Made by a program: the position numbers and the translations under genes. From positions 186,001 through 250,000 of the forward strand of contig NZ_SCHL01000004.1 of the NCBI RefSeq assembly GCF_004099695.1: a DNA stretch of 64,000 nt, written 5' to 3'. Source of the DNA: Methanosarcina sp. MSH10X1 (GTDB lineage: Archaea; Halobacteriota; Methanosarcinia; Methanosarcinales; Methanosarcinaceae). Shown here piece after piece: positions 5,227 through 61,400 of this stretch (the first letter of the stretch is position 1; each line of letters starts with the position of its first letter). The notes below the pieces were generated by a model. It was not told the DNA's origin and made no database searches. It saw nothing but the letters and a program-made list of their open reading frames with translations.

Positions 5227-5913
5227 TAGCTCAACGGATTCTGGGCTGGATCCTGGACTTCTTTCGGAGTCGGAAATGCTGTTCTCGTTTTTGGAGGCAA
5301 GCCACCTGACTCCAAGATATACAAAGGGGGTATCAAGGAGAGCGAAACCGATTTTAAGGATCCAGAGAGGTAAAATCATCTGTATAACGGTAGCGGCATT
5401 AAGCTCCGGGGTCACCCGATAAAAAGCGACAAACATAAACACAGTTGAATCAATCAATTGAGAAATGATTGTTGAAAGGTTATTTCTGAGCCAGAGGTGC
5501 CTGCCGTTCGTTTTCCGCTTCCAGAAATTGAAAGCCCAGATATCATGGTGCTGGCTTATAAGAAAAGCTGCCATACTCGCTACGATGATGCGCAGGGAAC
5601 TTGAAAAAATCCTGGTATAAGCCTCATTATCCTGATATATTAAAGCAGGGGTAAGACCTGTACATAAAGATACAAAGATAAACGCAATACAGAGCGACAG
5701 AAAACCGGCATGCACAAAAATCCTTGTAGTCTCTTTTCCCTTAACTTCTTCTACTATGTCCGTAATCAGGAAAGTCGGAGGATACCCTAAAAATCCTACT
5801 GAGGTTACGATGCCGAAGATCTCAATTAGCTTATTTCCCAGGAGATTCCCTAGCAGCAAGCAACTGATGAAAATCGTAAGCAAGATCTGTAACTTGTAAT
5901 TCGTGGATTTCAT
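5203..5913 (-). CDS. Queuosine/archaeosine precursor transporter, YhhQ/VUT family
   Basis: Membrane protein of 236 aa with about six hydrophobic spans. It carries family features of the TIGR00697 group: an early NLLGNKLIEIFG segment, a GYPPTFLITDIVEEVKGK motif after the first helices, the SQHHDIWAF loop and a late SQLIDSTVFMFVAF helix with QLID. YhhQ-type proteins take up 7-deazaguanine precursors (preQ0/preQ1); in archaea these feed archaeosine synthesis on tRNA. The hydrophilic C-terminal tail runs into the palindromic repeat array, where the stop lies, so the last 20 or so residues may have been added by repeat expansion. No biosynthetic partner gene is adjacent. Confidence 0.85.
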   Translation of the reverse strand: MKSTNYKLQILLTIFISCLLLGNLLGNKLIEIFGIVTSVGFLGYPPTFLITDIVEEVKGKETTRIFVHAGFLSLCIAFIFVSLCTGLTPALIYQDNEAYTRIFSSSLRIIVASMAAFLISQHHDIWAFNFWKRKTNGRHLWLRNNLSTIISQLIDSTVFMFVAFYRVTPELNAATVIQMILPLWILKIGFALLDTPFVYLGVRWLASKNENSISDSERSPGSSPESVELQAFSKKA

Positions 5914-6130
5914 GGGTTTCAGAGCCTGAATTTGGGTTATTGGGTTGAATGCACCGTTTTTAAATAAGATTAAGAATATTTAATTAACTTTACCAGTGAT
6001 CTTACTGAATCTTTTTAATCGGGTGTTTTTAACTGAATCTGTTCAGTTAAATTTTTTAATCGTACCTCGCTGTGGTGGCTTAGAATTTTCTGAGGTAACT
6101 TATGGCGCAAAAGATCCCGTAAGATAAAGA

Positions 6131-6958
6131 TTACCTGAAACGTTCAGCTCTTTTTAAGAGGTTTTGAGGAGAACGGTCCACTTCATCGCAGATAATCCTG
6201 TGACGGAATGAGCCCGGAAGAATGGAGCAGGTCTGATTATCCGTACTCCGAAGCCCCCAGGTCTCGTCCGTCAGCAGAAAGTAAGAATCTTCAAGCCTGA
6301 CACCTTTTGCCTCCAGCGAAGAGAGTACCAGCGGGTCAGAGAGGTCTTTTCTTATTTCCTCTGCGGCTTTTACCTGGGTGCCAGGTCCTCCTTTTTTTAT
6401 AAGATAAAGCCGGTCATCCGAGAGGATTTTGTCAATTGTACGTATAATCAGCCTGTAACAGGTTTTTTTATTCGTGGATTTTTCTTCGACTTTCCCCAGA
6501 TAAAGAATATTGTTCCCTTTTCGGGCAATATCGGATAGAATATCCTCTCTCCGAGAAAAAGACTCCACTTCGCAGGTGGGAATATTAAGGAAAAACACCG
6601 GGAATTTTTTAGACAGGCTGTCCGCAATTGCCTGATTCACTTTTTCGCGTGGTATATACTCAAAGTTAATGCTTAGCCCGGAAAGCTTCTTTTCGATTTC
6701 CTGCTTTTCCTTCTGGAAAATTTTCACAGCTTCAGTAGAATCATTGTAAATGGTAATATCCAGGTCGCCTTTGGAAAAAATTCCGGTCAGAGTTACAGCG
6801 AAATCAAGAGCTGAAAGTTCACAATCAAGATTACTTTTTGGGACATCGGGAACCTTTGTTGTAGATTGGTGAATCTGCTCACCGTCCCGGAGTACCGTAC
6901 AGCCGATATAAGAGTTCTCACCTTCGTTAAAGGAAGCGTCACAGTAAACTTCTAACAT
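6131..6958 (-). CDS. RNase H-like domain protein
   Basis: The first 130 residues match the RNase H type I fold: LEVYCDASF with the first catalytic Asp, CELSALDFA with the Glu, IYNDST with the second Asp and NQAIADSLSK with the final Asp, all in correct order. The remaining 145 residues form a second domain I do not recognise (LSDIARKGNNILYLG...), which might bind nucleic acid or a partner. I placed the start at 6958 because RNase H folds begin almost at the initiator and GGTG lies eight to ten bases upstream; an in-frame extension to 7048 is a hydrophobic shadow. The likely activity is cleavage of RNA in RNA/DNA hybrids. No operon partner. Confidence 0.75.
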   Translation of the reverse strand: MLEVYCDASFNEGENSYIGCTVLRDGEQIHQSTTKVPDVPKSNLDCELSALDFAVTLTGIFSKGDLDITIYNDSTEAVKIFQKEKQEIEKKLSGLSINFEYIPREKVNQAIADSLSKKFPVFFLNIPTCEVESFSRREDILSDIARKGNNILYLGKVEEKSTNKKTCYRLIIRTIDKILSDDRLYLIKKGGPGTQVKAAEEIRKDLSDPLVLSSLEAKGVRLEDSYFLLTDETWGLRSTDNQTCSILPGSFRHRIICDEVDRSPQNLLKRAERFR

Positions 6959-7277
6959 GCTTATTTTCACCTTTTCAGTAGAAAAATTTCTTACGAACCG
7001 GGCTAAGATATACAGGCCAAACATACAGAAGTAATACGATAGGGCCACAAATTGTAGTCACTATTGATAAAGTATGATATTAGAAATATATTACGTATAA
7101 ATGAAATAAAAGGAGTCCGGGGAGTATAAGCTGAAAAAGTCAGGGTAAAACAGAGAAAAAGGAAAGAGAAGAAAAAAGAAAAAAGAGAAGAAAAAAGAGA
7201 AGAAAAAAGAGAAGAAAAAAGAGAAGAAAAAAGAGAAGAAAAAAGAAAAGAAAAAAGAAAGGGAAAAAATAATTAGA
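6959..7277. other. Intergenic region with purine-rich repeat
   Basis: No gene seen. It holds the RNase H gene promoter (A/T-rich, 7040-7100) and, nearer groEL, the purine repeat listed separately. Confidence 0.5.
7165..7260. repeat. 12-bp purine tandem repeat GAGAAGAAAAAA
   Basis: Five or more near-perfect copies lie directly after the groEL stop. On the groEL transcript this is a pyrimidine tract (TTTTTTCTTCTC)n. U-rich tracts terminate archaeal RNA polymerase, so the repeat may serve as the groESL terminator. Confidence 0.75.
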
Positions 7278-8894
<1,617 letters not shown>

Positions 8895-9524: not shown

Positions 9525-9932
9525 ATGGTTCAACAGATAACCCTCAGACACCTTGAAAAACCTCATATCAAAAGTCTGGAAGAGGATCTTCTATGGTTAT
9601 GCAATAGCTTCGGTTTTTCTTCGGGCAGGGACACGGAAAATACCTCGACAAGGATAATTTTTAGCCTGCTTGACAAACTCTCAAATGCTGAGATAACTTC
9701 CTCAGAAGCCCTTGCTGACGACCTTGAAATAAAAATATCAAGGGTAAACCATCATCTCAGGAATCTTAACGATTCGGGTCTTCTTTACAGAAAAAAACGC
9801 CTGATATACCTCCGTGGAGGCAGCCTGAAAGCTGCAGTAAAAGAGATGCGGAAGGACTCAGAAAGGATCTTCGATGAGCTTGAAAGCATAGCTGAAGAAA
9901 TAGATTCCAGGATAGGTATCAAAAACCGTTGA
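9525..9932 (+). CDS. Winged-helix (ArsR-like) transcriptional regulator
   Basis: 135 aa. Residues 45-95 form a winged helix-turn-helix: a helix, then ITSSEALADDLEIKISRVNHHLRNLNDSGLLYRKKRLIYLRG with a recognition helix (SRVNHHLRNL) and a wing. The C-terminal helix (MRKDSERIFDELESIAEEID) probably dimerises. The gene is divergent from groES-groEL and faces the palindromes, so it is a good candidate for the chaperonin regulator, but this rests on position only. Its stop TGA overlaps a TTG that can start the next gene, suggesting coupled translation. Confidence 0.75.
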   Translation: MVQQITLRHLEKPHIKSLEEDLLWLCNSFGFSSGRDTENTSTRIIFSLLDKLSNAEITSSEALADDLEIKISRVNHHLRNLNDSGLLYRKKRLIYLRGGSLKAAVKEMRKDSERIFDELESIAEEIDSRIGIKNR

Positions 9933-11220: not shown

Positions 11221-13233
11221 TCAGTGATATTTGCGTTCCCGTCTTGTTGCAATTTCTTTTTCTCTTTCCAGCCTCTGCAGTCTCTCCTCATCACTCTCGG
11301 TTTTTTCCAGACTTTCTAACCTTTCTTTCTCCTGCCGCGCCATTGCTTCCTCTGCCGTTTCCAGGGAACCTGTTCTTTCAGTACGGGTACCTGTTCTTTC
11401 AGTACGGGTAGTAGTCCTCTGTGGTTCGGTTTCTCTGAATACTCCTGCCGTTTCCCCCCTCTGCCAGTAAGGCTCGTATCCGTAGTAGGTATAGGATCTG
11501 GAAAGCTGCTCACGGGTTAAAGGCCAGTTGTCCTTATCAAAGCCCTCTGCCCTTTCCAGGACATCCTTGCTAATATTGAGAACAAAGGCGTGCTCATGCG
11601 GTCTTGGGGAGAGAGCCTGCCAGGGGATAGCAAAGAGTTTATCGGCCATGCCCAGGAACCCGCCAAAAGACATGACGGCATATGCCACTCTACCGCTTTC
11701 GAGATCAATCATTAATTCTTCAATTCTTCCAAGATCTTCCCCAGCCGTGTTGATGACTCTATCCGTTTTTATCGTACTTGCGGACAAGAAGTCCGGCATC
11801 TCCCTACCTTCTTCGCCTCTCGCCCGGACCATTGTTTCGGCTTCCGCCCTTTCTCTTTCAAACTGTGCAAATCTTTCTCTTTCGGCTTCAGCCTGCCTCT
11901 CTACTTCAGTACGTTCTCTTTCCAGCTCTGCCAATCTCTGTCTCTCGGTCTCAGCCTGTTTCTGGGCTTCTGCACACTCTCTCTCCAGTTGAGTAAGTCT
12001 GTCTCGACGGGCTCCTTCCTGTGTCTGTACTGACCTCAATTCCTCTTCGAGCCGGGATACCTTTTCTCTTTCCTCCTGTCTTCTTGCTTCCTGTAACTCT
12101 CTTTCCAGCTGTTCCAGTTTCTGTCTCTCTGTCTGTGCCTGTCTTTCTGCCTCAATTCTCTCTGTTTCCAGCCGTCTCAGCCTATCTCTTTCAGTCTCTG
12201 CCTGCTTCTCAGCCTCCATCCGCTGCCTTTCCAGCTCCGAAACTTTTTCTTCCTGTGTCCTCCTTAACTCTTCAAGCCTTTCTCTTTCCTGCTGCGTTAT
12301 TTTCTCTTCTTCCGGTCCTACCGGCATTGATCTTTCTCTTTCAATCCGTGCAGCCCTTTCGGATTCGGTCTCAGTTGGCATTGCTGCTGAAACTCCCGCT
12401 GCTGAAACCCCTGCTGCTGCAGCTCCTGCTGCCGGTACCGTCATTTCTTTCTGCCAGTAAGGCTCGTATCCATAGTAGGAGTAGGTTCTGGAAAGTTCCT
12501 CACGGGTTAAGGGCCAGTTGTCCTTATCAAAACCCTCGGCTTTGTCGAGAATCTCTTTAGATACATTGAGAGCGAAAGCGTGCTCATGCACTCTCAATGT
12601 GAGAGCATCCCAGGGAATAGCAAAGTATTTGCTGCCAATGCCCAGGAACCCACCGTGTGAGATTACGGCATATCCTACTTTTCCATTCTGGAGATCGATC
12701 ATAAATTCCTCAACCTTCCCGATATCGTCTCCAGCCGTACTGACAATCTTATCCCCTTTTAGCGTACCTGCTGACAGAAAATCCGGATTTTCCCGGTCTC
12801 CCGATGTTCTTTCCCCTGTGGTCCGGGCCATCCTCTGTGACTCGGTCTCTTCAGTCATTCCTGCAGCCACTCCTGCCTGCCAGTAAGGCTGGTATCCATA
12901 GTAACTGTATACAGTGGTCAGCCACTCACGGGAAGTTACAGGCCAGTTGTCCTTATCAAAGCCCTCAGCTTTCTCAAGAGTTTCTTTAGGAACATCAAGG
13001 ACAAGGGCATGGTCGTGAAGTTTCATTCTAAAAGCCTGCCAGGGAATAGCAAAAAGTTTATTGCCCATACCCAGGAATCCGCCGAAAGAAAGTACTGCAA
13101 AAGCTAACCTTCCATCACGAAGGTCAATCATTAATTCTTCAATCTTTCCAAGGTCGTCTCCGGCTGCGTTAACGACCTTATCCCCCTTTAACGTGCTTGC
13201 TGACAAAAAGTCTGGATTACTTCTATTTGCCAT
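11221..13233 (-). CDS. Three-module PRC-barrel protein with a long coiled coil
   Basis: 670 aa. Three PRC-barrel modules of about 118 residues occupy roughly residues 1-119, 145-262 and 490-605. Each runs from NPDFLSAxTLKGDKVV through ELMIDLxxGRxAYAVLSFGGFLG and LFAIPWQAL to AEGFDKDNWPLT and YSYYGYEPYWQ. Between modules 2 and 3 is a highly charged E/R/Q-rich helix of about 190 residues predicted to form a coiled coil. The tail is again charged. PRC barrels occur in photosynthetic reaction-centre H subunits, RimM and archaeal proteins; function here is unknown. No signal peptide. The ATG follows GGGGG. It is the last of three tandem paralogues. Confidence 0.85.
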   Translation of the reverse strand: MANRSNPDFLSASTLKGDKVVNAAGDDLGKIEELMIDLRDGRLAFAVLSFGGFLGMGNKLFAIPWQAFRMKLHDHALVLDVPKETLEKAEGFDKDNWPVTSREWLTTVYSYYGYQPYWQAGVAAGMTEETESQRMARTTGERTSGDRENPDFLSAGTLKGDKIVSTAGDDIGKVEEFMIDLQNGKVGYAVISHGGFLGIGSKYFAIPWDALTLRVHEHAFALNVSKEILDKAEGFDKDNWPLTREELSRTYSYYGYEPYWQKEMTVPAAGAAAAGVSAAGVSAAMPTETESERAARIERERSMPVGPEEEKITQQERERLEELRRTQEEKVSELERQRMEAEKQAETERDRLRRLETERIEAERQAQTERQKLEQLERELQEARRQEEREKVSRLEEELRSVQTQEGARRDRLTQLERECAEAQKQAETERQRLAELERERTEVERQAEAERERFAQFERERAEAETMVRARGEEGREMPDFLSASTIKTDRVINTAGEDLGRIEELMIDLESGRVAYAVMSFGGFLGMADKLFAIPWQALSPRPHEHAFVLNISKDVLERAEGFDKDNWPLTREQLSRSYTYYGYEPYWQRGETAGVFRETEPQRTTTRTERTGTRTERTGSLETAEEAMARQEKERLESLEKTESDEERLQRLEREKEIATRRERKYH

Positions 13234-13397: not shown

Positions 13398-14192
13398 TTA
13401 TAATCTCGGTGTCTGCCAGTAAGGCTCATATTCGTAGTAACTGTACACTTTAGAAAGCCAATCAAAGGTAGTCACAGGCCAGTTGTCTTTGTCAAAGCCT
13501 TCTGCTTTTTCCAGAGTAAATTCAGGAATATTAAGTATGAAGGCATGTTCGTGAAATTTTACTTGAAGCGCCTGCCAGGGAATAGCAAAAAATTTGCCGC
13601 TCACATCCGGAAATCCTTCAAGAGAAAGTACGGCATATGCTACTCTTCCAGCCTGGAGATCGATTACTAACTCTTCAATCTTCCCAATATCCTCTCCAGC
13701 AATACTGACAATCTTTTGCCCTTTTATAGTGTCTGCCGGCAAAAAATCGGGATATTTCCGACCTGTTGTTCTTCCCATTCGGGCCATTCTTTCAGATTCT
13801 GCCTCTCCACGCAACCAGGTTTGTTCTGCCACTACAGTTTGCCAGTAAGGCCAGTGTCCATAATAAGTGTATATGCCGGAGAGCTCCTCACGAGTTAAAG
13901 GCCAGCTGTCCTTATCGAAACCTTTGGCTTTTTCCAGAACCTCCCTGGAGATATCAAGAACGAAAGAATGCTCACGTACTTCTTTTGTAAGAGGCTGCCA
14001 GGGAATAGCAAAGAGCTTATCTCCCCTGTCCAGAATTCCACCAAAAGAAAACACTGCATATGCTATTCTTCCGTTTGCAAGATCAATCATTAATTTTTCG
14101 ATCTTTCCAATATTCTCCCCAGTTTTATTGACTACCTTATTCCCTTTCAGGGTACCTTCGGACAAAAAATCCGGATCATTCCTATCCGCCAT
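13398..14192 (-). CDS. Two-module PRC-barrel protein
   Basis: 264 aa with two PRC modules of the same pattern as the neighbours (NDPDFLSEGTLKGNKVV..., then YPDFLPADTIKGQKIV...), each ending in a Tyr/Trp-rich Y-x-PYWQ segment. I chose the ATG at 14192 because all paralogues begin MA(D/N)R-x-(N/D)PDFLS and GGGGAG lies upstream; the 21-codon extension is spurious. Module 2 is the most divergent of the cluster (SLEGFPDVSGKFFAIPW instead of SFGGFLG...). Middle gene of the array; probably cytoplasmic and possibly oligomeric. Confidence 0.82.
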   Translation of the reverse strand: MADRNDPDFLSEGTLKGNKVVNKTGENIGKIEKLMIDLANGRIAYAVFSFGGILDRGDKLFAIPWQPLTKEVREHSFVLDISREVLEKAKGFDKDSWPLTREELSGIYTYYGHWPYWQTVVAEQTWLRGEAESERMARMGRTTGRKYPDFLPADTIKGQKIVSIAGEDIGKIEELVIDLQAGRVAYAVLSLEGFPDVSGKFFAIPWQALQVKFHEHAFILNIPEFTLEKAEGFDKDNWPVTTFDWLSKVYSYYEYEPYWQTPRL

Positions 14193-54698: not shown

Positions 54699-56000
54699 AT
54701 GAAACCTTCACAGCTGACTGCCGCAATCTTCTGCCTTGCCCTGGCACTCTTTGCAGCTGGATGTACGGATCCAGAAGGAACTTCTATTGAAACAACTTCG
54801 GAACAAACGACCCCTATAACAACTACTCAAAATACCGTCACTGAATCAGGCCAGAGCCTTACCGTTCATTTTCTGGATATTGGTCAAGGGGACTCAATCC
54901 TCCTTGAAATTGATGGAAAAGCCATGTTAGTTGACTCAGGGGAGCGTGACCGGGGAAAGGTTGTCGCAGCTTACTTGCAGGACCGGGGAATTTCAACACT
55001 GGATTATGTAGTTGCAACCCATCCACATTCTGATCATATCGGCGGTATGAACGATATTCTTAACAACTTCCAGATAGAACATTTTGTTGACAGTGGATTT
55101 CCCCATACCTCCAAAACTTATGAGAATATGCTGACCACTATTGATACGAAGAATATTCCTTTTGAAGTAGTCCAGGCTGGTCATAAAATTGATTTTGACC
55201 CTGCTGTTGACATTGAAGTGCTGAATCCTGCAAGCACATACTCCGACGAACTGAATGAAAACTCCGTGGTTCTTAAAGTAACGTATGGCGAAACTTCCTT
55301 TTTGCTCATGGGAGATGCAGGTCTGGAATCAGAAGAAAGCATAATGAAAGCCGGATACGATGTGGATTCTGATATCCTTAAGGTCGGACATCATGCAAGC
55401 AGATCCGGCAGCGGAGGAGCCTTTATTTCAGCTGTAAGTCCTGAAGTAAGTGTTATCGAAGTTGGAGCAGGAAATGATTATGGGCATCCCCATACCGAAG
55501 TTCTTGAAAGATTACAGAAAGCTTCAACAGTATATAGAACGGATCTGGATGGCACAGTTACAGTTACAACAGACGGATCAACTTACAGTATAACGACTGA
55601 AAAAACCGGAACTATCTCCAGTGGAAATGGGGCTTACCCCTCTACGGATTCAACAACTGAAGAACAAGCCGAAGAATACGCAGATTCAAGCTCTACCGGA
55701 TCAACCGTGTATGTGAGCGACCTGAATATTCAGGATGAATGGGTTCGGATATCAAACACAGGGTCTTCCCCGGTTTCCCTGAAAGGCTGGAAAATTGAAG
55801 ACGAAGGCAGTAAACATACCTATACTTTTCAGCCCTACACCCTGAATTCAGGAACCACCGTAACTGTATATACCGGAAAGGGCACAAACTCAGCTAGTGA
55901 GCTTTACTGGCAATCAGACAACCCTGTATGGAACAACGATGGTGACACAGCATATCTCTACGATAATAGTGGAAAGCTGATCTCAGAACTGGAGAGCTGA
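54699..56000 (+). CDS. ComEC-like metallo-beta-lactamase lipoprotein with lamin-tail domain
   Basis: 433 aa. Lipobox at the signal peptide end (LALALFAAGC). Residues 50-300 form an MBL-fold hydrolase of the ComEC/Rec2 C-terminal type: VHFLDIGQGDSILLEI, THPHSDHIGGM, LMGDAG and VGHHASRSGSGG. C-terminal 105 residues are a lamin-tail (LTD) domain (WVRISNTGSSPVSLKGWKIED). Such MBL proteins act on nucleic acid; here it would be surface-anchored, with LTD possibly binding substrate or wall. Followed at 2 bases by DUF3006, a common pair. The ATG at 54699 is preceded by a TATA-like ATTAATATATTT. Confidence 0.88.
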   Translation: MKPSQLTAAIFCLALALFAAGCTDPEGTSIETTSEQTTPITTTQNTVTESGQSLTVHFLDIGQGDSILLEIDGKAMLVDSGERDRGKVVAAYLQDRGISTLDYVVATHPHSDHIGGMNDILNNFQIEHFVDSGFPHTSKTYENMLTTIDTKNIPFEVVQAGHKIDFDPAVDIEVLNPASTYSDELNENSVVLKVTYGETSFLLMGDAGLESEESIMKAGYDVDSDILKVGHHASRSGSGGAFISAVSPEVSVIEVGAGNDYGHPHTEVLERLQKASTVYRTDLDGTVTVTTDGSTYSITTEKTGTISSGNGAYPSTDSTTEEQAEEYADSSSTGSTVYVSDLNIQDEWVRISNTGSSPVSLKGWKIEDEGSKHTYTFQPYTLNSGTTVTVYTGKGTNSASELYWQSDNPVWNNDGDTAYLYDNSGKLISELES

Positions 56001-56002
56001 AG

Positions 56003-56251
56003 ATGGAGAAGTTAAGAGAGAGTATCAAAGTTACTCTTGACCGCATAGAAGAAGGCATTGCAGTGTTGCTTATACGGGATGACGAGTCAATAAAAATCAA
56101 TATCCCTCTTTTTTTGTTGCCTGCTGAAAGTAAGGAAGGTGATATTCTGGATATTACCATAACCAGAAATGTGCAGGAAACTGAGGAAGCGAAGGAAAGA
56201 GTATCGAGCATTCTTGAGAAGCTTAAGAATAAGAATCAAGGAATGGAGTGA
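56003..56251 (+). CDS. DUF3006 domain protein
   Basis: 82 aa. DRIEEGIAVLLIRDDE and the following short beta strands ending LLPAESKEGDILDITITRN match DUF3006. Small, with a charged helical tail. It starts two bases after the MBL lipoprotein stop, so the two are co-translated; in bacteria DUF3006 proteins also sit next to MBL-fold genes. A modulatory role is inferred. Confidence 0.8.
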   Translation: MEKLRESIKVTLDRIEEGIAVLLIRDDESIKINIPLFLLPAESKEGDILDITITRNVQETEEAKERVSSILEKLKNKNQGME

Positions 56252-56670: not shown

Positions 56671-57135
56671 TTACACTTTTTTTCCCCACATTTCCTCTTT
56701 TGCCTTCTGTACTCTCTCTTTTTTAACAATTTGTGTGCCACTTAAGTTATAGTTTTCCTCTAAAGAGTTATCTGCCACACTAATAATGGAGGAAAAGTCA
56801 GGTACCGTCTTATTATAAAATTTCTTGAGACTTTCAACCCACAGCTTACCCTTTTCTTTTATTTTATATGTAACTGGTTTTTTACCTAATTCTTTTTCTA
56901 TTTCTATTAGCCCCATCATTTCAAATTTAATATTTGCTTTTGATAATCCATCCTCTCGTGGTCCAAATTTGTTCCGTTCAAAATCAAAGTTTTGCCCACA
57001 TTTATAGCTGTTTTCAATAAGAGATTCTTTTAATTCATAGCATAATTTCTCGAATTTTAGATTTCCTTCAATACAGTCTGATTTATACAAACTGTACATA
57101 TGTAGAAAATTTTTGTTTATCCTCTCTTCATTCAT
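56671..57135 (-). CDS. Winged-helix-like third component of an ABC-ATPase operon
   Basis: 154 aa. Residues 50-108 resemble a winged helix-turn-helix: a GPREDGLSKANIKFEMMGLI helix pair then a wing of KELGKKPVTYKIKEKG. No membrane segment. The ATG overlaps the stop of the ATPase gene (ATGA), showing tight coupling. In described ABC-three-component systems a small wHTH middle component partners an SMC-like ATPase; I infer the same role here. Assignment rests on gene context and a motif read by eye. Confidence 0.65.
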   Translation of the reverse strand: MNEERINKNFLHMYSLYKSDCIEGNLKFEKLCYELKESLIENSYKCGQNFDFERNKFGPREDGLSKANIKFEMMGLIEIEKELGKKPVTYKIKEKGKLWVESLKKFYNKTVPDFSSIISVADNSLEENYNLSGTQIVKKERVQKAKEEMWGKKV

Positions 57136-58949
57136 TGTACGTCAAACCCGAACAAATCTTTGTTAAATTTTACACTCACTGTTGGAAGTTCCAGAATATC
57201 ATTATAGGACCTATCAGCCGTTAGAATCAGAAATTGAGTGTCATTGGTCTTACACTTTTCTTTTATTAAGTTCAGTAAATTGGTTTTATTATGAGCGTCT
57301 TTACGAAGGTTTAGGTCATCATACAATCCATCAGCAGGATCATCAAGAATAACGAAATCAATTAATGAAGAATTATATTCGTTATCGAGATCAATAAAAG
57401 TGAATAATAAAGAGGCATCTATACATTTTTTTTCTGACTCCCCAATTTCTTTGGAGGTAGAAATATCATCTATTTCTTCATAGTTTTTGAAAGAAGTTTT
57501 AAAGAATAATTTTCCGTTTTCCAAAACAATTGGCTGGCTTTTATAGCCCATGAGCCTACCATAATAAAGGTTTATCCTTTCCAAAAATGTTTTTATGCCT
57601 TTTTCTTCTAGCTCTTTCTCCAAAATGGATCTCTTTGACTCCAAAGATTTGATTTCTGTAGTAATTTTAGCAATCTCATCATCTTTATTTTTTATCTGGT
57701 TATTTGATTCTTTAATATCCATTTCAGTTTTATTGAACTCGTTCCGAAATTTCTTTAGTTGTAGTCTCTGTTCTTCAATAAAAGTCTTAAATTTCACGTC
57801 TTCAAATGACTTAAAACTTTCAATACTTCTAACAATTTCAGGATTTAAGATAAGAGCTAAATCGTTTAGTTTACTTTTTAAATTATGTAGAAGCTCATAA
57901 TTTTTATTAAGCTCTCCCTCCATTTGCTGTATTCTTTCATTTAACTTAGGTAGCTCATCATTGGAATATTGTATTCTGTGAGAAATATTGTCATAAAGTT
58001 CCTTGTCATAACTTTCGTCCCCACAGTAAGGGCATCTTTTTTTATTATATTGAGATGCAACTTTCGAAAGGTTGGCTTTTTTACCACATACAGGACAAAT
58101 TAAAACACTAATTATTTCTTTAATTAAATTAATTAGAGACGCTTCATGGAATTTTTCTAGTTCCAGTTTTGAAATATATGCCTTGTCTAACTCCTGTCGA
58201 AGAGAGATATTTTTTCTTTGCAAGTCATTTATTTCTTTCCATAGTCCTGCATCCACTTTTTTGACATCAAAAACTTGTTTTATACTTCCATCGTCATGAG
58301 AGGAAACTAATTGTTTAAGATGTTCAATATAATTTTTTGAGGAATATATTACATTTCTCTTCTCTTTTAAACTACTCTCTAAATCTTTCTTTTCAACAAA
58401 AAAATATTCTCTTTCCTCAGTTCTTTTTTTAATTGCGTTTTTTAACTTTTCTGTCTCTTCGTTTTTAGAATTTAAGCTTGTATAAAAACTGATCATCTTC
58501 AATAGCTTTCTACTATCGTATTTTTTCAACGATGATTCCTGGTCTTGATGCAATAACCTTGCTTTAAACTCTAAACAATCTTCAGAAGGATAATCGAAAA
58601 TCTCTTTAAGTTTATTGTTTATTGACTCCATTTCAGTAATGGTTTCGATATTGCCATCTTTTAAATTTTTGATAGCCAGTTTGTGGTTATTGCCAGCTTT
58701 TCTGTCTAAAGTTAGTTCTAATTCATCATTAGATAACTTTACATAAGTATCTGCCAAATTATTGATCGGTCTAGAAGAACCTTTTATTCCAAATATAGCA
58801 TAAGAAAGGGCATCAAGTGTAGTAGATTTTCCGCTTTTGTGTTCTCCATAAATTAAAATGTGATCCTCTAATTTTGTAAGATTCACCCCTAAATATCTTC
58901 GAGAATTGAATTTAGTTATTTTGAATTCTTTAATTCGAAATTTGGTCAT
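57132..58949 (-). CDS. SMC/Rad50-like ABC ATPase with zinc-hook motif
   Basis: 605 aa. Walker A GEHKSGKST (35-43), Q-loop LLHQDQ (132-137), coiled-coil arms about 165-275 and 320-470, a two-CxxC zinc motif between them (CPVC 285-288, CPYC 306-309), an ABC signature-like IGESEKK (502-508), Walker B FVILDDPADGL (532-542) and a switch-like LILTADRSY near 574. The last acidic residue of Walker B is Asp, not Glu. It resembles ATPases of the Lamassu/ABC-three-component and Rad50 groups and may sense DNA ends. Lies three bases after the four-TM gene and overlaps the next gene. Confidence 0.85.
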   Translation of the reverse strand: MTKFRIKEFKITKFNSRRYLGVNLTKLEDHILIYGEHKSGKSTTLDALSYAIFGIKGSSRPINNLADTYVKLSNDELELTLDRKAGNNHKLAIKNLKDGNIETITEMESINNKLKEIFDYPSEDCLEFKARLLHQDQESSLKKYDSRKLLKMISFYTSLNSKNEETEKLKNAIKKRTEEREYFFVEKKDLESSLKEKRNVIYSSKNYIEHLKQLVSSHDDGSIKQVFDVKKVDAGLWKEINDLQRKNISLRQELDKAYISKLELEKFHEASLINLIKEIISVLICPVCGKKANLSKVASQYNKKRCPYCGDESYDKELYDNISHRIQYSNDELPKLNERIQQMEGELNKNYELLHNLKSKLNDLALILNPEIVRSIESFKSFEDVKFKTFIEEQRLQLKKFRNEFNKTEMDIKESNNQIKNKDDEIAKITTEIKSLESKRSILEKELEEKGIKTFLERINLYYGRLMGYKSQPIVLENGKLFFKTSFKNYEEIDDISTSKEIGESEKKCIDASLLFTFIDLDNEYNSSLIDFVILDDPADGLYDDLNLRKDAHNKTNLLNLIKEKCKTNDTQFLILTADRSYNDILELPTVSVKFNKDLFGFDVQ

Positions 58950-58952
58950 ATA

Positions 58953-59537
58953 TTATTCCTCAAACAAGCTTTTGTAGTCAAAAATAATAGTATTTTTCAA
59001 GTCTAAAAAAGAAGATCCAAAAAAATATCCAAAATATAAGGATGCCAAACCCCCTGAAATTAAAAAAATTCTATTTTGAAAAATAAGACCATAGGATAAT
59101 AGAAGAAAAGAGTTAAAGGAAGCAATAAATAAGTCTAAGAACTTTGGAATCTTTTCGGTACGTAACCCAGTGTCTAACTTATCTATTTCAATTTTGATTT
59201 CTTGTGGTAGTATGTCATGATTCTTCCTAGGATCTCTATAAATGTCATAGAGTCCGTCTTTGAACTTCTTCTTTGCTAAGGTATATTCTAACATAGGTCT
59301 TTTAAAAAAAACTCTTAAAATTGAATCATATTTTTCTAGCAATGCCGAATAAACCATTACGTAGACAACTAATAACAGGCCACTAAAAATAAAAAACTTC
59401 CAATCATTCTCAAAAGATTCTAATACGACTCCACTATCTAAATATGATGGAAGCTTGTCTATTACATAAATTAGAAGTGCCAGTGACATAGAAAGAGTCG
59501 TGTATTTACCTAAAAAGGCAATCAGCGTATCTTTCAT
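58953..59537 (-). CDS. Four-TM membrane protein, candidate effector
   Basis: 194 aa. Predicted membrane segments at about 14-28, 47-67, 134-153 and 156-175, separated by a charged cytoplasmic stretch of about 65 residues (LAKKKFKDGLYDIYRDPRKN). No signal peptide or enzymatic motif. It is encoded directly upstream of the ABC ATPase with a three-base gap, so they share a transcript. In defence operons of similar plan a membrane effector damages the envelope; that role is inferred. No family recognised. Confidence 0.7.
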   Translation of the reverse strand: MKDTLIAFLGKYTTLSMSLALLIYVIDKLPSYLDSGVVLESFENDWKFFIFSGLLLVVYVMVYSALLEKYDSILRVFFKRPMLEYTLAKKKFKDGLYDIYRDPRKNHDILPQEIKIEIDKLDTGLRTEKIPKFLDLFIASFNSFLLLSYGLIFQNRIFLISGGLASLYFGYFFGSSFLDLKNTIIFDYKSLFEE

Positions 59538-59575
59538 AGGTACATCCAGAATATAAATATTTTTATTTATTTGTG

Positions 59576-59716
59576 TTACTTCAATGAAGATGAAAGACTA
59601 TGCAAAGCATACAAAATCTCATAGGCCATATCTGGATTTACAAACCAGATAACTATAAAAACAATTACTGCAATCAAAAGGTAAGTCCCAAAGCCAGTGT
59701 GAACTACTCTACCCAT
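59576..59716 (-). CDS. Single-TM microprotein, 46 aa, first gene of the ABC operon
   Basis: A small frame, MGRVVHTGFGTYLLIAVIVF continuing IVIWF, has one hydrophobic span (about residues 9-27) and a short amphipathic tail. GGTG stands eight bases before ATG 59716, a usual ribosome-binding site. It ends 39 bases before the four-TM gene on the same strand. Short hydrophobic frames arise by chance, so this is a candidate, supported by the Shine-Dalgarno sequence and position. Confidence 0.5.
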   Translation of the reverse strand: MGRVVHTGFGTYLLIAVIVFIVIWFVNPDMAYEILYALHSLSSSLK

Positions 59717-60434
59717 TAAATCAACACCAGGTAGTAAGAACGCAAACCTTCATATATAGATTTTTCGTTTGTTAGATAGTTTTTATCTATTTTAGGATTT
59801 GTGATAACTTCTATTAATTTACAATTTTTCCTCATATTTAATAATAAGCATTCATTTTTATTTATTTCAAGTGTTTTATTATACTCATTTTATTAATCTC
59901 TATATGCTTAAGGATTTAGTAATTTGTCATTTGAGTAGATACCTTAGTTTGGTCTTTTTAGAAAAATTCTCTATATTAAACTCCGTTTGAGAAAATAAAT
60001 TTCAATTGGTCTGCTGAAGTGTAATCCCTTCGGCCAATTTATTCCCGTGAAAACAGTATGTATTTAAGAAATCAATACTTATTCTAAATTGCTGCATTGG
60101 TTCACTATAATGTTAAAGTCGCTTCCATTTAGACATTTTAACTTACAGAAATGCATGGTCTACATAGAATAGGTTTTTTAAAATCAGTTTTCTTATCTCT
60201 TTTATCTACATCCAGCTCTTTTTAAAATTTGCTCCTTAAAGGAAAAGATCTGTACAAGTATGATGACTTCTACTAATACAAAAACCAATAATATTTAAAA
60301 GAATTTAACAGAATCAAATTTTCTTGGCAGCTTACCGAAAGTTCTGTAAAATATGAACTCGAAGAAAGAATTGAAGCATTAGAAAAAGAAGTCTATAAAT
60401 CCACTAAATCAGAAAATAAGGATAATAAAAACAG
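59717..60434. other. Accessory-region spacer
   Basis: 718 bases, mostly A/T-rich, with no intact gene. The right part (60292-60434) is the remnant listed below. The left part holds the promoter of the ABC operon on the minus strand. Confidence 0.5.
60292..60434 (+). pseudogene. Coding remnant (coiled-coil C terminus), copy 1
   Basis: An open stretch after TAA at 60289 encodes YELEERIEALEKEVYKSTKS, a charged helical tail, without a start or any upstream domain. It runs directly into the partial tRNA-Val copy. A related tail (RIEALEKKMSKASKS) precedes the intact tRNA-Val at 61192-61338. Probably the C-terminal end of an integrated-element gene; identity is not established. Confidence 0.5.
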
Positions 60435-60477
60435 TGGGCCCGCTGAGATTCGAACTCAGAACTTCCGCAGTTTGAAG
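60435..60477 (-). repeat. Partial tRNA-Val copy (3' half), candidate att site
   Basis: 43 bases match the 3' half of tRNA-Val(CAC) (61327-61369) with about six mismatches: discriminator, acceptor strand and T arm are exact, and similarity falls off in the anticodon arm. It cannot form a full tRNA. This is the pattern left by integration into a tRNA 3' end. It lies 892 bases from the intact gene, in the same orientation. Confidence 0.8.
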
Positions 60478-61191: not shown

Positions 61192-61338
61192 CTTGATCAA
61201 GAACTTAACTGTGAACTTAAAGTTACACAATTTAAAGAAAAATCTGATCTTGAATCAAGAATTGAAGCATTAGAAAAGAAGATGTCTAAAGCCTCTAAAT
61301 CCGGAAAAAAAGTTGAAAAAGAAAAGTGGGCCCGCTGA
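61192..61338 (+). pseudogene. Coding remnant (coiled-coil C terminus), copy 2
   Basis: Open frame DQELNCELKVTQFKEKSDLE then SRIEALEKKMSKASKSGKK, ending in TGA inside the 3' end of tRNA-Val (opposite strand). It shares IEALEK and the K/S-rich tail with copy 1 at 60292-60434. No start codon or upstream domain. Consistent with the C terminus of a gene next to an att site. Confidence 0.5.
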
Positions 61339-61400
61339 GATTCGAACTCAGGACCTCCGCCGTGTGAAGGCGACGTCATAACCGTCTAGACCACGAGCCC
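61327..61400 (-). tRNA. tRNA-Val (anticodon CAC)
   Basis: Acceptor GGGCTCG pairs with CGGGCCC, with one G-U at pair 5. D arm GTC-TAGACGGTTAT-GAC, anticodon stem TCGCC/GGCGG around TT-CAC-AC, variable AGGTC, T arm CTGAG-TTCGAAT-CTCAG, discriminator A. No intron. It serves as the presumed integration target of the neighbouring region. Confidence 0.95.

Follow-up and report, generated by a model that had tools for sequence, protein, structure and literature searches.

The window, as we call the whole 64,000-nt stretch analysed here, carries on its minus strand a 46-codon ORF directly in front of a three-gene set that encodes a Rad50/SMC-like ABC ATPase. An earlier note on this DNA proposed that the ORF encodes a membrane microprotein that leads the ABC operon. 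The locus raises two questions: whether so short a frame is a gene, and whether it belongs to the operon that follows it. The features concerned are:

59576..59716 (-): gene of a 46-aa predicted single-pass membrane microprotein, by its ORF, homologues, dN/dS, predicted structure and hydropathy
59725..59728 (-): GGTG Shine-Dalgarno-like motif, eight bases before the microprotein ATG, read directly from the sequence
59538..59575 (-): gap of 38 nt from the microprotein stop to the ATG of the four-TM gene, with no hairpin plus U-run terminator
58953..59537 (-): 194-aa four-TM protein, operon gene 1
57132..58949 (-): 605-aa Rad50/SMC-like ABC ATPase with a CxxC...CxxC hook, matching PADLOC PDLC03859 (LmuB-like), E=2.3e-19
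56671..57135 (-): 154-aa third component that weakly matches ABC-3C middle component MC2, E=0.11

The ORF is a conserved small membrane-protein gene

The ORF translates into 46 residues, MGRVVHTGFGTYLLIAVIVFIVIWFVNPDMAYEILYALHSLSSSLK, and its start region, CCTGGTGTTGATTTAATG, places GGTG eight bases 5′ of the ATG. It has one hydrophobic span, with a 19-residue Kyte–Doolittle maximum of 2.57, and lies in line with the four-TM gene. The sequence confirms the earlier note on these points. The note also put the ORF 39 bases before the four-TM gene; the in-line upstream position stands, but the distance from its stop to the ATG of the 194-aa gene is 38 bases. Counting ATG ORFs of 40–60 aa with a 19-residue mean Kyte–Doolittle value of at least 2.0 and four or more bases of Shine-Dalgarno match, we found only this one in the 64-kb window, whereas randomised windows contained 0.3 on average. 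When the 896-nt local region was randomised, one such ORF appeared in 0.2% of trials.

Four clear homologues were found among 112 genomes of the family Methanosarcinaceae, three in Methanosarcina (G079, G081, and G097) and one in Methanolobus vulcani B1d (G064). With the window copy included, the microprotein is present in 5 of the 112 genomes, a patchy distribution, and an order-wide profile search gave no further homologues. Profile matches below about 21 bits in other archaea (L008–L032, L034–L061, and L077) were treated as noise, because those that were translated and read proved to be other-frame fragments or interrupted ORFs. The homologues are 48–59% identical and share the invariant positions V4, H6, G8, F9, T11-Y12-L13-L14-I15, V26, P28, and A31, i.e. 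a motif H-x-G-F-x-T-Y-L-L-I plus Pro28. Where dN/dS was computable (dS unsaturated) it lay between 0.12 and 0.35, being about 0.22 for the window copy against both G079 and G097, and thus far below one, the value that the earlier note had named as speaking against a gene. The microprotein evolves under purifying selection. As the only such ORF in the window, with four conserved homologues under purifying selection, the frame goes beyond chance, and 59576–59716 is a genuine, conserved small membrane-protein gene.

The earlier note expected that gene finders would usually miss it; family libraries do, with no Pfam, NCBIfam, or PADLOC model matching it. The window copy has no match in PHROG either, and the M. 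vulcani copy only a weak one (phrog_33842, E=6.5e-4); a profile search of the PDB found no relative. The microprotein is a new, narrow small-membrane-protein family of Methanosarcinaceae.

The predicted structure suits a kinked membrane peptide

AlphaFold, run with the five-sequence alignment, predicts a helix over residues 2–26, a break at N27–P28, and a second helix over residues 28–45, with a mean pLDDT of 86. Hydropathy is 2.57–2.75 in the four members measured. The hydrophobic moment of the second helix was above that of shuffles in the window, G081, and G064 copies (p 0.001–0.025), while its amphipathicity was borderline in G079 (p=0.06). The model suits a single-pass peptide with a kink at Pro28 and an amphipathic tail on the membrane surface. 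Such a peptide might insert as a single helix with the C-terminal amphipathic helix laid on the membrane surface, and might then modulate a membrane protein or oligomerise in the membrane. The strict conservation of H6, G8–F9, and T11–Y12 points to specific contacts, which could be made with a membrane partner or with the peptide itself. Our best guess is a facultative membrane peptide that would bind the one or the other.

Precedents for small proteins acting on membrane complexes exist in M. mazei (PMC10714827, PMC12774963, PMC13370731), including one that inhibits ammonium transport (PMC10714827). The microprotein is like the M. mazei small proteins detected by Ribo-seq (PMC11456600) in being a stand-alone Methanosarcina sORF missed by annotation, and some of those act on membrane proteins (the ammonium transporter), but its family is patchily distributed and without an assigned target. 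With MtrI, a 68-aa zinc-ribbon protein (PMC12774963), and MtrR, which has no transmembrane segment (PMC13370731), it has in common an accessory, membrane-associated character, confinement to Methanosarcinales, and stand-alone genes. In contrast to both, it is predicted to be an integral single-pass helix, and the window copy contains no cysteines. Taking the features of MtrI and MtrR from the papers, identity with either is ruled out by the clear predicted TM helix and the lack of a PDB relative in the profile search.

The microprotein and the three-gene operon occur apart

The neighbouring operon resembles a variant of Lamassu/ABC-3C systems in which a membrane protein takes the effector position and the small component comes last. 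Its ATPase matches LmuB and it has three genes, but a four-TM protein stands where enzymatic LmuA effectors are usual (PMC10586767). The predicted fold of the four-TM protein is of low confidence (pLDDT 62), and the protein has no PDB match with E < 0.001; the 154-aa third component is conserved across the five-member set that was aligned. The same set, i.e. the four-TM protein, the LmuB-like ATPase, and a protein of ~155 aa, recurs in five further genomes of the order (G062, G009, G096, G506, and G097), where the G096 contig ends before the third gene is visible and the ATPase frame of G009 is interrupted. The loci are:

Window, 56671-59537 (-): three-gene set
L066:4132-7039: three-gene set
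L084:3372-6207: three-gene set
L085:3676-6017: three-gene set
L086:3593-6468: three-gene set
L087:3264-6095: three-gene set

In the window, the operon is adjoined by a two-gene unit at 54699-56251 (+), a secreted metallo-beta-lactamase-fold protein with a lamin-tail domain followed by a DUF3006 gene.

A six-frame profile search of the five homologous operon regions found no microprotein relative in any of them, nor are their four-TM genes preceded by a short hydrophobic frame that resembles it at about the same length. The conserved counterpart that the earlier note suggested looking for is lacking in all five, including the closest operon (G062). None of the four relatives of the microprotein (G079, G081, G097, and G064) has the ABC operon adjoining it, the G097 flank being viewed as far as the contig end, about 0.4 kb past the microprotein 3′ end. 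G097 carries both families, on different contigs. With the microprotein a component of the homologous operon in no relative, and four relatives without the operon, the proposal that it leads the ABC operon or is its effector, inhibitor, or toxin partner finds no support in this comparison. From these arrangements, the microprotein is probably the operon's neighbour and not its part. The linkage occurs in one genome only, hence its conservation or loss is not measurable there.

The relatives are solitary genes with their own terminators

In all four relatives, a hairpin at or just past the stop codon is followed by a U run, as in a terminator. In three of the four, almost no shuffled sequence folds as well as the hairpin (z −2.25 to −2.84); the effect is weaker in G081 (z −1.35). 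Their Shine-Dalgarno sites (GGAG, GGAGG, or GAGGTGA) are stronger than the GGTG of the window. A conserved 200 nt upstream of the gene is common to G079, G097, and G081; between G079 and G097, the ORF together with these 200 nt is 91–92% identical, compared with mostly 80–88% in the flanks. The conserved region holds a palindromic GTACATGTACTTGTAC element and a hairpin. As the palindrome occurs essentially only upstream of Methanosarcina microprotein copies, a regulon was rejected. A second conserved ORF in the G079/G097 block was likewise rejected, stops interrupting the G097 frame, and a sigma-70 promoter scan was discarded as not applicable to archaea.

Around the G079 copy, a gene at L062:5899-8611, as read from the sequence, is seemingly split by a transposase-like insertion: its parts, 5899-6369 and 7985-8611, lie on either side of a transposase at 7015-7941. 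Several copies of a dispersed repeat, some 50–130 nt long, occur within 11 kb (L062:3153-3307, 5559-5710, 9804-9931, 12495-12583, and 13877-13967), one of which lies just downstream of the microprotein.

A self-terminated gene of this kind recalls bacterial type I toxins, which the microprotein resembles in length, in its one hydrophobic helix, and in its own short transcription unit with a terminator. It might be a membrane peptide that acts like a toxin, in a type I-like or solitary module kept silent by mRNA structure or antisense RNA, though this is unlikely. The conserved 200 nt upstream would fit such silencing, and the G079 mRNA forms a stronger fold than shuffled sequences do (z −2.5), but the folds are less significant in G081 (z −1.6) and G097 (z −1.45), and the consensus fold shows little covariation. 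A 14-nt complement between 5′UTR and ORF runs without interruption in G079 and G097 alone; G081 has it imperfectly, G064 and the window lack it, and against random expectation it is marginal (p about 0.04). Long-range mRNA pairing, which is not conserved here, is thus marginal as a signature of a type I toxin. The polar residues of the N-terminal half are strongly conserved, suggesting specific binding and not membrane damage alone.

Several copies lie near tRNA genes or integrases

Upstream of the window microprotein, at some 0.6–1.7 kb, lie a tRNA gene and a decayed repeat of part of it:

61326..61400 (-): tRNA-Val (CAC), which flanks the region and is probably an integration site
60348..60477 (+): att-like direct repeat, a decayed duplicate of the 3′ portion of tRNA-Val with adjacent sequence, whose other copy is at 61239-61369

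The repeat includes adjoining coding-like sequence (...LESRIEALEKKMSKASKSGKKVEKEKWAR*) and is probably the trace of a past integration. The G064 copy is about 0.8 kb from a tRNA-Ser gene, and the G081 copy is located among integrases and virus-like genes. The latter region (G081 L063:3201-18974) encodes three tyrosine integrases, a small hydrophobic coat-like protein, and a 671-aa surface-like protein; relatives of a 172-aa protein of the region occur in five further genomes of the family.

These surroundings and the patchy spread would fit the microprotein being cargo of a virus or mobile element, e.g. a superinfection-exclusion peptide, a reading to which we give a low chance and which overlaps our preferred explanation on the source of the gene but differs on its function. 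An IMG/VR pattern scan with the family alignment returned no microprotein match, nor did the window copy match any phage or plasmid record. The relatives of the G081 virus-like genes in G079 lie about 56 kb from the microprotein, and 0.85 kb separate the G097 copy from the start of an ORF for a putative chromosomal translation release factor. The idea of a provirus gene was tested via the G081 neighbour proteins and rejected: three of them searched in phage records had no match, and no consistent linkage was seen.

The window arrangement may stem from a local rearrangement

The window copy has no clear sequence in common with the conserved upstream region of its relatives, and its 38-nt gap, unlike the 3′ ends of all four relatives, contains no terminator. 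Given the missing terminator and the location within a decayed insertion region linked to tRNA-Val, the copy most likely came to head the operon by a local rearrangement, which is deduced from the decayed repeat and not from an empty-site comparison. Recombination in this region would have placed the microprotein, without its terminator, before the operon. With no terminator between the microprotein and the four-TM gene, read-through is possible, and the microprotein may today be co-transcribed with the operon without being one of its components. Taken together, we consider it reasonably probable that the microprotein is a stand-alone, patchy family whose placement in the window arose by rearrangement and which, more tentatively, works as a membrane peptide.

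The same gap, 38 bp, in line, and terminator-free, is however the appearance expected of a recruited operon member. The microprotein could have been recruited recently as a functional operon component, made from the same transcript and serving the four-TM effector as its membrane partner or antidote; both are membrane proteins, and the ORF is intact under purifying selection. Set against the five operons that lack it, the closest included, and the four stand-alone relatives, this seems distinctly unlikely. It is very improbable that recruitment made the microprotein the leading gene of a Lamassu-like operon with a membrane effector, and that it controls the four-TM effector as its antidote or trigger; if true, it would form a four-part immune module with the three-gene operon.

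Implications

The three-gene Lamassu/ABC-3C-like set may merit study in its own right. Adjacency to a defence operon can mislead, and the conservation of the operon compared with that of the peptide points to separate histories. The microprotein represents a genuine archaeal gene family that is under selection and described in no family library. Should its members turn out to be membrane regulators or toxins, they would be readily amenable to genetics in Methanosarcina, being small, patchily distributed, and equipped with a terminator of their own.
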